Source: Bacteroidota bacterium
GTDB lineage: Bacteria > Bacteroidota > Bacteroidia > Bacteroidales > Prolixibacteraceae
Assembly (NCBI GenBank): GCA_030698405.1
Contig: JAUYMU010000106.1
Span: 1-49,140 of the forward strand
Direction of reading: 5' to 3'
Length of the DNA: 49,140 bases
The notes beneath the pieces are model-generated. The model made no database searches and had not been told where the DNA came from. It was given only the letters and a program-made list of their open reading frames with translations. This document shows, piece by piece, positions 35,717-39,858 of this stretch (position 1 is its first letter; each line of letters begins with the position of its first letter). The translations under genes and the position numbers were made by a program.

Positions 35717-36296
35717 ATGACACGGAAAGAAGCATTAAAGCTATTTGAAGATAAAAAAGTTCGCACCGTTTGGGATGGAGAACAGGAAAAATGGTTTTTG
35801 TCCATCATTGATGTCATTGAAATACTAACGGATAGCCCTAACGCCCGCAAATATTGGAGTGTATTAAAAACACGACTCAAAAAAGAAGGAAGTCAGTTGG
35901 CTACAAATTGTAGTCAACTGAAAATGCAATCGGCAGATGGAAAATTTTATAAAACTGATGTTGCTGATATTGAGCAACTTTTCAGGCTAATCCAATCCAT
36001 TCCATCGCCAAAAGCTGAACCATTTAAAATGTGGCTGGCTGAAGTTGCACGTGAACGGTTGGACGAAATGGATGATCCGGAACTTGGGATCGACCGGATG
36101 CTTGAATATTACAAATAAGATTTCGAAACAACATCAGCCCAAAACCCCGGAAGAAAACAGAAAAGTAGCAGCCCGTGGCGGTTCGATTGTTGGCAATACC
36201 CGCAAGGAGATTGAAGCCAATATTGGAAAAAGCATTGTTTCACCGCTAAATGCAAGGAAAATAAAACAACTGCCCGAAAACGGAATTGAAGATTGA
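35717..36296 (+). pseudogene. BRO-N domain (phage antirepressor-like) gene with internal deletion
   Basis: The 133-codon first frame has the complete BRO N-terminal domain (KWFLSIIDVIEILTDSPNAR; DVADIEQLFRLIQSIPSPKA; ELGIDRMLEYYK) and stops at TAA 36116. The next frame continues at once with ISKQHQPKTPEENRKVAARG and NTRKEIEANIGKSIVSPLNA, the known C-terminus of such proteins. Full-length relatives have roughly 100 more residues between these parts, so there was a deletion with a frameshift. BRO-N proteins bind DNA and are found in phages and as damage-inducible genes. The N-terminal domain alone might still be expressed. Confidence 0.75.
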
Positions 36297-36373
36297 AGTC
36301 GATTTGATTTATATTTATCTGGCTTCCCTCAACAATAACTTCTTCAGGAATGTTTTAGAACGAAAAAGCAACT

Positions 36374-39124
36374 ATGCACCCTGTTCTAAAGGAAAACATT
36401 CAGGAAATTGGCAAACCCTATTCTGATCTACATTTCTTGCTCAACTGCCTGGCCGAAGTTCTCGAAGCAAACAATGAAAAAGAACTTATAAACAGCATTC
36501 CCTGGTTAAATACTCGGGTTTTGCTACCAGCACCCGAACTTGAACAGAAAACCATTCAGCTTTATTCCATCTGTTTTCAGTTACTGAATTTGTGCGAAGT
36601 AAACTGGGCCGTACAAAGCAGGCGAAGTAAGCAGCAGTCGCAAGGTTCACAAAGTGTAAACGGAAGCTGGGCACATACCTTTTCGGAATTAAAAGAGGCC
36701 GGAATTGTTCAGGAGGAAATAGTTGCAGCGCTTTCGCAATTGGAGATTGAGCCGGTAATGACCGCGCACCCCACGGAGGCAAAAAGAACAGTTGTTTTGA
36801 AATATTACCGCGAATTGTATCTGCAACTGGTTATGCTTGAAAATCCGGTTTACACGACTTTTGAACGCGTTCAGATCCGGTCGGGCATCAAAGAATTGCT
36901 AACCAGGCTTTGGTTCATTGATGACATTTACCTCGAGAAACCGCAGGTTGAAACCGAACTCGAGAACGTTTTACACTATCTCACCAAAGTTTTTCCTGAT
37001 GTATTTGAACTTCATGATAAAACATTGATTCAGGCATGGAATGAAGCCGGTTTTAAACCGGAATTGTTGCAAAATTACCGGTCGATGCCCAAAATTAGTC
37101 TGGGTTCGTGGGTGGGTGGCGACCGCGACGGGCATCCATTGGTGACTCCTGAAATCACGAAATACACCCTGGAACGGTTGCGGACAGAGGCACTAAATCT
37201 GGTTGGCCAACGACTGCACACTCTTGCTGATAGTTTGAGTATTTACACGTCAGAAAACACTTTATCTGCTGAATTTCAGGAATTAATTACACTGCTGAAA
37301 AACCAGATTCCGGGAATTTCGGAGCATCTGCAATTCACTGCTGCATCAAGAGAACCATTTAAACAATTTGTTATTCTCCTGATCGAAAAACTTCCGGTAA
37401 AGCAAAATCATTCAGGAACAAATGCATGGACTTATACAAATTCCTGCCAATTGCTATACGACCTGGAAATGCTGCTTGAGGCACTTTCCAACTGGGGCGC
37501 ACCTATGCTGGCTATCAACGAAGTAAACAAGGCGCTGCGTTTCGTGCAGAATTTTGGTTTTCACCTTGCTCACCTGGATATCCGCCAAAACAGTGAATTT
37601 TACCAGAAAGCATTTCTTGGCCTACTGGAAGATGTCGATACATCCGGTTTTTCGATGAATACCGATGGCTCGCCCGATAAAAAACTTCTGATTCAGGAGT
37701 TAAACCTCTACCGGCCTTTTACCCATAACTACTCCGGAAATGTTCCGGAAACAGACAATGCACTTGGTTATCTTGGTGTTTTGGACGAACATATCCGGAA
37801 GTTCGGCATCAATGCGTTGGGTTCAATGATTGTAAGTATGACCAAAAAGGTGGACGATTTATTCACTTTTTACCTGCTTGCACGCGAAGCCGGATTGTAT
37901 GTAAAAACCAAATCGGGACCGGCTTGTCAATTGCCTGTTGTGCCGCTTTTTGAGACCATCGACGATTTGCACCGCGCACCCGAAATTCTGGATGAATTTT
38001 TAGCGCATCCGGTCACCCAAAATACACTTCAATTGCAAGCACAGCGCAAAGGCTATTCAAAGCCTTTTGCCGAAGTAATGATTGGTTACAGCGACAGCAA
38101 TAAAGATGGCGGTATTTTATCGAGCCTTTGGCACCTGTACGAAGCACAGCACGAGCTGTCCAAAATTGGACAAAAACACGGCATTGACATCCGTTTTTTC
38201 CACGGAAAGGGTGGAAGCATCAGTCGGGGCGCCGGACCGATTCACTGGTTTCTGAAAAGCCTTCCGCCGGAATCTTTGTGCGGCAAACTGCGGCTCACCG
38301 AGCAGGGCGAAACCATCGAACGAAAATATGCCAACAAGGTCAACGCAGCATTCAACCTGGAATTACTAACTTCAGGAACCTTGCGCAATACTTTGCTAAA
38401 TACCCATCTGTTTGACAAAGAATTGTTTGAACTGGTCGGATTTATGGCGCACGAAAGTTTTACGACCTATACTGCGCTCACCCGTCATCCGAGCTTTATC
38501 CGCTTTTTCGAACAGGCCACCCCGATCGATGTGATTGAAACCAGTAAAATTGGTTCCCGTCCATCACGTCGGACGAATCAACGCACGCTAGCGGATTTGC
38601 GCGCTATTCCGTGGGTTTTCAGCTGGACACAAAGCCGGGTAAATATTACCAGCTGGTATGGAGTTGGCAGTACATTGCAACTCTTGAAAGAGCATTATCC
38701 TGAAAAATATGATTTGCTAAAAAAGTTGCTAATTTCGCATCCTTTGCTTCGGTACATTTTAACCAATGTGGATTCGGGTTTGGCAGCAACTGATCCGGAT
38801 ATTATTGAGCGATATGCCTCATTGATTGAAGAGGACCAAATCAGGAATGAAATTTTGCCTATGATTTTATCCGAGTTTCAACTCACTAAAAGCCTGTTAG
38901 CCGAATTACTCGAAAAGCCGTTTGAGGATAGAAGAAAGAACCATTATTATTCGACGCGATTGAGGGCAGTAGCGTTGGATTTAATGCATCAGGTGCAGGT
39001 AAATACGCTCCGCCACTGGCGAAACGAAAAAGATACGGAAGATCCCGAAATTTCCAATAAACAGAATATTATTTTGCTAAAAACCATCAATGCAGTTGCC
39101 AATGCGTTGGGGTCAACAGGTTAG
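36374..39124 (+). CDS. ppc: Phosphoenolpyruvate carboxylase
   Basis: Cytoplasmic enzyme of 916 residues making oxaloacetate from PEP and bicarbonate, refilling the TCA cycle. Catalytic motifs: VMTAHPTEAKR (His near residue 134), VGGDRDGHP, GYSDSNKDGG, FFHGKGGSISRGAGP, SRPSRR and VFSWTQSRVNITSWYGVGS. The C-terminus ends in LGSTG, in keeping with the family's conserved terminal TG. It begins 77 bases after the BRO-N relic and is followed after 38 bases by an LCIB-type carbonic anhydrase homologue on the same strand, with no terminator between them. Confidence 0.97.
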   Translation: MHPVLKENIQEIGKPYSDLHFLLNCLAEVLEANNEKELINSIPWLNTRVLLPAPELEQKTIQLYSICFQLLNLCEVNWAVQSRRSKQQSQGSQSVNGSWAHTFSELKEAGIVQEEIVAALSQLEIEPVMTAHPTEAKRTVVLKYYRELYLQLVMLENPVYTTFERVQIRSGIKELLTRLWFIDDIYLEKPQVETELENVLHYLTKVFPDVFELHDKTLIQAWNEAGFKPELLQNYRSMPKISLGSWVGGDRDGHPLVTPEITKYTLERLRTEALNLVGQRLHTLADSLSIYTSENTLSAEFQELITLLKNQIPGISEHLQFTAASREPFKQFVILLIEKLPVKQNHSGTNAWTYTNSCQLLYDLEMLLEALSNWGAPMLAINEVNKALRFVQNFGFHLAHLDIRQNSEFYQKAFLGLLEDVDTSGFSMNTDGSPDKKLLIQELNLYRPFTHNYSGNVPETDNALGYLGVLDEHIRKFGINALGSMIVSMTKKVDDLFTFYLLAREAGLYVKTKSGPACQLPVVPLFETIDDLHRAPEILDEFLAHPVTQNTLQLQAQRKGYSKPFAEVMIGYSDSNKDGGILSSLWHLYEAQHELSKIGQKHGIDIRFFHGKGGSISRGAGPIHWFLKSLPPESLCGKLRLTEQGETIERKYANKVNAAFNLELLTSGTLRNTLLNTHLFDKELFELVGFMAHESFTTYTALTRHPSFIRFFEQATPIDVIETSKIGSRPSRRTNQRTLADLRAIPWVFSWTQSRVNITSWYGVGSTLQLLKEHYPEKYDLLKKLLISHPLLRYILTNVDSGLAATDPDIIERYASLIEEDQIRNEILPMILSEFQLTKSLLAELLEKPFEDRRKNHYYSTRLRAVALDLMHQVQVNTLRHWRNEKDTEDPEISNKQNIILLKTINAVANALGSTG

Positions 39125-39162
39125 AGTTTTTTACTTATGTCAACATCAAATTCAGTATATAA

Positions 39163-39858
39163 ATGGAAAAAATAATAAGTCAGTACTTCGATGAATTTAC
39201 AACCATGTCGGAGGCATCACACAATGCTGTGATTAAAATTGCAGAACGTGAAGGAATTGAAATGAACCGGATAATTCTGGCGACTTCATTTTGTTTCGAT
39301 GAGTTGAATCACCATCAGGAAAAAATGAAACTTCCCATAACACAGGGAACTTTTATCATGGGCGGTTTGGCCGGATATCCATTTGTAGGAGAAATCGGCC
39401 TTACAGCTTTTGCCGACCATATTCCTGATAATGGGGCGGCGTTGTTTATTTTTGGTTCACACATCGGAATTTCCAGTAACGGAGAAGTGGGCAAGGTAAA
39501 ACGGGTCGGACAACACCGGCATACCAATACCTGCGGGGCATTGATGAAGGTGCAGTCACACGTTTTGTCTTCGTCAATCCACAAAATTGATCCAGTTGAT
39601 TATTCCGGATTTCAGGCCGAATTTTTGGCGCTTAGGCTACTTCCGATGGCCAAAGAAATCAGGAATGCTGAAGTTCCAATCCTGAAAACCACCCATCTGG
39701 TTTATGATGAAATTGAAAATGAAATACTAAAGCTAATTATCAACAATGAAGTATTACAAGCCGATTTTCCCGTTTATATTCTGGGCGGAATTGTGATCAA
39801 TACTGATGAAACATTGCCCAATTATTTTTCACAGAAAGTTTTCAGGAAAGTTCGGTAA
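39163..39858 (+). CDS. LCIB-type (theta/beta-like) carbonic anhydrase homologue
   Basis: A 231-residue protein with the signature of the LCIB family from algal CO2-concentrating mechanisms: ATSFCFDELN (Cys44, Asp46), IMGGLAGYPFVGEIGLTAF, ADHIPDNGAALFIFGSHIGI (His100), EVGKVKRVG and NTCGALMKV (Cys124). The Cys44/His100/Cys124 set fits the Cys-His-Cys zinc site, and Asp46 the catalytic helper. Carbonic anhydrase activity is known for some, not all, LCIB members. Its place 38 bases after ppc, in the same direction, suggests it supplies bicarbonate to that enzyme. It lacks a signal peptide, so is cytoplasmic like PEPC. Confidence 0.82.
   Translation: MEKIISQYFDEFTTMSEASHNAVIKIAEREGIEMNRIILATSFCFDELNHHQEKMKLPITQGTFIMGGLAGYPFVGEIGLTAFADHIPDNGAALFIFGSHIGISSNGEVGKVKRVGQHRHTNTCGALMKVQSHVLSSSIHKIDPVDYSGFQAEFLALRLLPMAKEIRNAEVPILKTTHLVYDEIENEILKLIINNEVLQADFPVYILGGIVINTDETLPNYFSQKVFRKVR

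Follow-up and report, generated by a model that had tools for sequence, protein, structure and literature searches.

A phosphoenolpyruvate carboxylase gene followed by a gene for a probable LCIB-family carbonic anhydrase in Prolixibacteraceae

The window, which here means the whole 49,140-nucleotide stretch of Bacteroidota DNA that was analysed (contig JAUYMU010000106.1), carries on its plus strand ppc, a gene for a PEP carboxylase (PEPC) of 916 aa (36374..39124), and then, after a stop-to-start gap of 38 nt (39125..39162), a gene of the LCIB family (LCIB_C_CA; 39163..39858) for a probable zinc carbonic anhydrase (CA) of 231 aa. The open reading frame coordinates bear out an earlier sequence-only reading of this DNA, which had placed the two genes on one strand 38 bases apart. 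The ppc product belongs to PF00311 (665.1 bits) and carries TAHPTE, GYSDSNKD, FHGKGGS, RGAGP and GSRPSRR, which we take to be the catalytic motifs of PEPC; against NCBIfam model PRK00009 it scores 641.7 bits, under that model's cut-off of 815. The LCIB protein scores 160.9 bits against PF18599 in a Pfam profile search, where the curated cut-off is 25. Profile searches of the whole window genome (5.49 Mb in 138 contigs, 99.84% complete) gave one LCIB match and one PEPcase match. Just upstream of ppc, in the region 35717-36373, lies a gene for a Bro-N domain protein (133 aa, PF02498), with no ORF of at least 90 aa listed between the two; a Bro-N-like gene is near the pair in 6 of 14 close relatives. 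Plasmid records gave no match.

That the gap holds no terminator had also been claimed, and a consensus scan found none there, but the scan itself says little because it returned 4 sites in 4 kb where shuffled sequence gave 4.8. A consensus scan for sigma-70-like promoters found no plus-strand site starting within the 38 nt. The Bacteroidota −7 motif is TAnnTTTG; it occurs neither in the gap nor in the 255 nt before ppc, and its lack in the gap therefore proves nothing. The features expected of a two-gene expression unit are nevertheless present, namely a shared strand, a short gap and a pair that is kept while its flanks change, and the two genes are probably co-transcribed.

The translation confirms Cys44, Asp46, His100 and Cys124 where the earlier reading had put them, along with GGLAGYPF and FGSHIGI. 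Cys44, His100 and Cys124 are the zinc ligands by homology. In an alignment of 59 LCIB proteins including the window's, 58 of which cover Cys44 and Asp46, the codons in question (all plus strand) specify invariant residues: Cys44 and Asp46 (39292..39300) in 58 of 58, and His100 (39460..39462) and Cys124 (39532..39534) in 59 of 59. The alignment excluded three fragments (L033, L034 and L046) and matches from the 395-genome Bacteroidota sample that had no locus. Two residues absent from the earlier list are likewise invariant in 59 of 59: His86 (39418..39420), which by spacing equals His88 of PtLCIB4, and Arg114 (39502..39504), a candidate partner of Asp46 that may pair with it and that is also an Arg in 5b5y, 6kfs and 9w05. 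In the PDB, the window protein has matches to eight different chain sequences, each named as an LCIB-family or LCIB/LCIC protein or a mutant of one, including PtLCIB4 (E 1.5e-22) and 6kfs (E 3.1e-29). Aligned to these solved homologues it has the Cys-His-Cys ligands and the Asp two residues after the first Cys, and all six residues (Cys44, Asp46, His86, His100, Arg114 and Cys124) are common to PtLCIB4, 6kfs and 9w05. His50 stands where PtLCIB4 has an Arg, six residues after the first zinc Cys, at a position that varies among bacteria. AlphaFold2, given the window protein and 14 close relatives (15 close sequences), returned an unusable model with a mean pLDDT of 46.5. A scan of viral contigs found no more diverse LCIB members.

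Among relatives taken from named genome contigs, ppc is directly upstream of the LCIB gene in 14 of 14, with gaps of 30–89 nt. Alone this is weak evidence because other genes stay nearby too: polyprenyl synthetase in all 14 of these close relatives, arsR in 12, and deoC and tpx in 11 each. In a sample of 120 genomes of the family, LCIB was found in 30 genomes (31 match rows), and in 29 of the 31 the gene immediately upstream, on the same strand, is a ppc match; a ppc match is present in 29 of the 30 LCIB genomes versus 78 of 120 overall. One unpaired row is a contig-edge fragment in G021. The other, in G112, is a real exception, with an LCIB gene of the same lineage in a genome that is 68% complete and has no ppc match. 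Nine of the 29 paired rows form a second LCIB lineage (genera g15 and g21), whose LCIB proteins are 29–36% identical to the window's and whose PEPCs, over the part covered, are 53–57% identical. Three loci of this lineage keep the pair and have none of eight genes that neighbour it in the window. At a shallower level, 4 of 23 genomes in the genus sample lack LCIB, and the two of these that were also in the ppc sample (G016 and G017) lack ppc as well. At a deeper one, LCIB was found in four of 247 genomes of the order besides the window's, and in two of the four, from two other families, ppc is directly upstream. The pair is kept by two divergent lineages of LCIB and also by two families of the order other than the window's.

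Two further loci deserve mention. At L194 (genome G708) a piece of the LCIB protein, compared over 124 aa, has 71% identity to the window's and the PEPC only ~53%, as would be expected if the two genes had diverged at unlike rates or had unlike histories. L003, a metagenome-assembled contig titled Chitinophaga pinensis, has the window's gene order and an LCIB protein 92% identical to the window's; its title may be a misnaming.

The position behind ppc can also hold a different enzyme. In 16 of the 120 family genomes a classical beta-carbonic anhydrase (PF00484) is directly downstream of ppc; no genome has both CA types in this slot, and those 16 have no LCIB match anywhere. Eight PF00484 rows under the curated cut-off, none of them on a ppc contig, were left out of the count. 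The six of these 16 loci that were read have gaps of 22–39 nt and encode a protein with CSDSR and HYYC or HYHC. Across the 78 genomes with a ppc match, the slot therefore holds LCIB in 29, a beta-CA in 16 and neither in 33, some of these 33 being contig-end fragments. In the 'neither' group, ten proteins encoded behind ppc or facing it share no common family, and none of them is a CA. A PF00484 match is found elsewhere in 8 of the 29 genomes with LCIB in the slot. None of the eight window neighbours occurs in 11 distant loci, made up of the three second-lineage loci above, six beta-CA loci and two from other families. That two CA families take one and the same place is hard to account for unless the place is meant for a carbonic anhydrase, and the exchange is the best evidence to suggest that the LCIB protein would serve as the carbonic anhydrase of PEPC. 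We dropped the idea that ppc with a beta-CA is a general Bacteroidota feature, since a comparison by eye of the ppc and PF00484 matches listed, 150 rows for each, showed no ppc adjoining a PF00484 match in the ~39 genomes common to both lists.

PEPC trees were built from 47 rows, and then from 45 after four distant second ppc copies were dropped and two rows added; they took in 8 first-lineage genes, 3 of the 9 second-lineage genes and 6 of the 16 beta-CA-linked ones. With this partial sampling the three slot types occupy separate clades; 'neither' genes are interspersed in the second-lineage clade and in the beta-CA clade, with one beside the first lineage. L033, L034, L046 and the truncated L032 were left out of the trees, as were most rows of genus g1 from one LCIB tree. 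The LCIB trees fit one or more origins of the pair because their branches are very long, and a single ancestral ppc-LCIB pair was dropped as a firm claim.

LCIB genes are found in 35 of 395 Bacteroidota genomes, the window's included, and none of the other 34 has ppc within ~5 kb where the contig allowed. One family has sbtA-sbtB (Sbt_1 and P-II) within ~5 kb of LCIB in 8 of 27 genomes, adjacent in four (L163, L164, L201 and L206) and farther off in L158, L166, L168 and L195; in four sbtA-sbtB loci a LysR regulator and isocitrate dehydrogenase lie in between. In two of seven other genomes, from two further families, a bestrophin gene directly precedes LCIB. These two loci (L150:5256-7676 and L152:3350-5823) have, on a single strand, an ion-channel gene followed by the bestrophin gene and then LCIB, which is reminiscent of the bestrophins in the algal system. 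Such neighbours indicate that LCIB sometimes travels with inorganic-carbon genes. The 150 proteins encoded no more than two genes away from 38 LCIB genes belong most often to the DEAD-box helicase (15) and glyoxalase (13) families; Sbt_1 and P-II appear four times each and PEPcase twice, both from the order sample, and of the 25 Pfam families met most often, out of 81, PEPcase is the sole carboxylase. The enrichment of LCIB beside carboxylases for which the earlier reading had asked is thus seen inside the order and not elsewhere in Bacteroidota, and in the Bacteroidota genomes sampled the LCIB-ppc link does not extend beyond this order.

Profile searches of the window genome gave no match to PF00484 or PF00194. 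The genome does encode a gamma-CA-like protein of 171 aa, whose best NCBIfam model scores 151.8 bits, under the cut-off of 250, and whose best-matching solved chains include carbonic anhydrases; because of it, we dropped the idea that LCIB is the cell's only carbonic anhydrase.

We consider it likely that ppc and the LCIB gene are an expression pair in which the LCIB protein is a zinc CA that hydrates cytoplasmic CO2 for PEPC. The two genes would be expressed together, the LCIB-family enzyme would convert CO2 in the cytoplasm to bicarbonate, and PEPC would use the bicarbonate to make oxaloacetate. This reading builds on the observed gene order and spacing, a pair kept with changed flanks, zinc-site residues that are all in place and a beta-CA that takes the same slot in relatives; the activity of the LCIB protein, the direction from CO2 to bicarbonate and the dedication to PEPC are predicted from these. 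Some LCIB homologues are reportedly active according to Jin 2016, a structural paper on the family. The Phaeodactylum relative is called active in an excerpt of PMC10096703, and excerpts of PMC10880623 agree with the earlier statement that PEPC uses bicarbonate. In line with the earlier caution that LCIB proteins without activity exist, purified Chlamydomonas LCIB/LCIC showed no activity despite its fold and zinc motif, and the same review states that the homologues characterised by structure, LCIB/LCIC included, were inactive (PMC5876011, in excerpt). Besides these inactive algal proteins, we counted against the proposed function the 33 of 78 ppc genomes with neither CA, the exception G112, the 0 of 34 elsewhere in Bacteroidota and the other CAs present in these genomes. 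The bicarbonate-supply and fixation unit that had been proposed from this sequence is partly supported, by a pair kept in two lineages and two other families and by the beta-CA in the slot, but not as something general in Bacteroidota.

A quite possible alternative, to which we give somewhat less than even chances, is that LCIB is a working but general CA, whose bicarbonate goes to PEPC no more than to the synthesis of fatty acids, pyrimidines and arginine, with ppc only lending its promoter. Since the window genome matches neither PF00484 nor PF00194, the LCIB protein may be one of the cell's main CAs, and G112 carries an LCIB gene of this lineage apart from ppc. On the other hand, the general enzyme could be the gamma-CA-like protein, and a link of some kind to PEPC is suggested by the occupation of the slot by two CA families and by the additional beta-CA that 8 of the 29 genomes with the pair have elsewhere. 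It is unlikely that LCIB is catalytically silent and partners PEPC in a structural or regulatory role; the inactive Chlamydomonas proteins give a precedent, but none of the six candidate site residues varies among the bacterial proteins and the slot in relatives encodes a classical beta-CA with its motifs in the loci read. That the two genes are neighbours only through inherited gene order, with no meaning for function, as the deoC, tpx, arsR and polyprenyl synthetase genes kept near by in close relatives might imply, is very improbable, since the 11 distant loci without the window's neighbours keep a CA gene behind ppc and the type of CA changes.

The favoured reading, of an LCIB enzyme supplying PEPC, can be widened tentatively, and we would sooner doubt the wider form than accept it: the position behind ppc would be an exchangeable CA slot, ppc having been paired more than once within this order (with the LCIB type in one or more events and with a beta-CA in another), and both enzymes would be interchangeable, dedicated to PEPC and perhaps touching it. 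Bacterial LCIB proteins, whose family is known mainly from algal carbon concentration, gain a testable non-photosynthetic job from the pair, and the exchange of LCIB for beta-CA in one slot is a natural experiment on whether LCIB proteins work as CAs in cells.

Both protein families are known. A literature search of titles and the starts of abstracts found no paper describing ppc beside an LCIB gene, nor the LCIB / beta-CA exchange behind ppc, and both are new to the literature searched. The closest known proteins are the algal LCIB-family (theta- or beta-type) CAs, PtLCIB4 of Phaeodactylum and LCIB/LCIC of Chlamydomonas, which belong to the same Pfam family as the window protein; PtLCIB4 has the same six candidate active-site residues. 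The window protein differs in being bacterial, 231 aa long and encoded beside ppc, and in its His50, whereas the algal LCIB proteins serve Rubisco in chloroplasts (PMC10096703, in excerpt). The bacterial beta-CA (Can, PF00484) shares the slot and the proposed reaction, but it is of another Pfam family, has CSDSR with HYYC or HYHC and has no match in the window genome. The LCIB genes that other Bacteroidota carry near sbtA-sbtB or bestrophin are of the same family and also accompany inorganic-carbon genes, although their partners are transport genes and not a carboxylase. A supply of bicarbonate matched to a carboxylase has likewise been engineered in E. coli by combining sbtA or bicA with ppc or pck; co-expression of carboxylase and bicarbonate transporter raised succinate, and the transporter alone lowered it (PMC4667291, in excerpt). 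The engineered system uses transporters, whereas the pair described here would be a natural one, with a soluble hydrating enzyme behind ppc.
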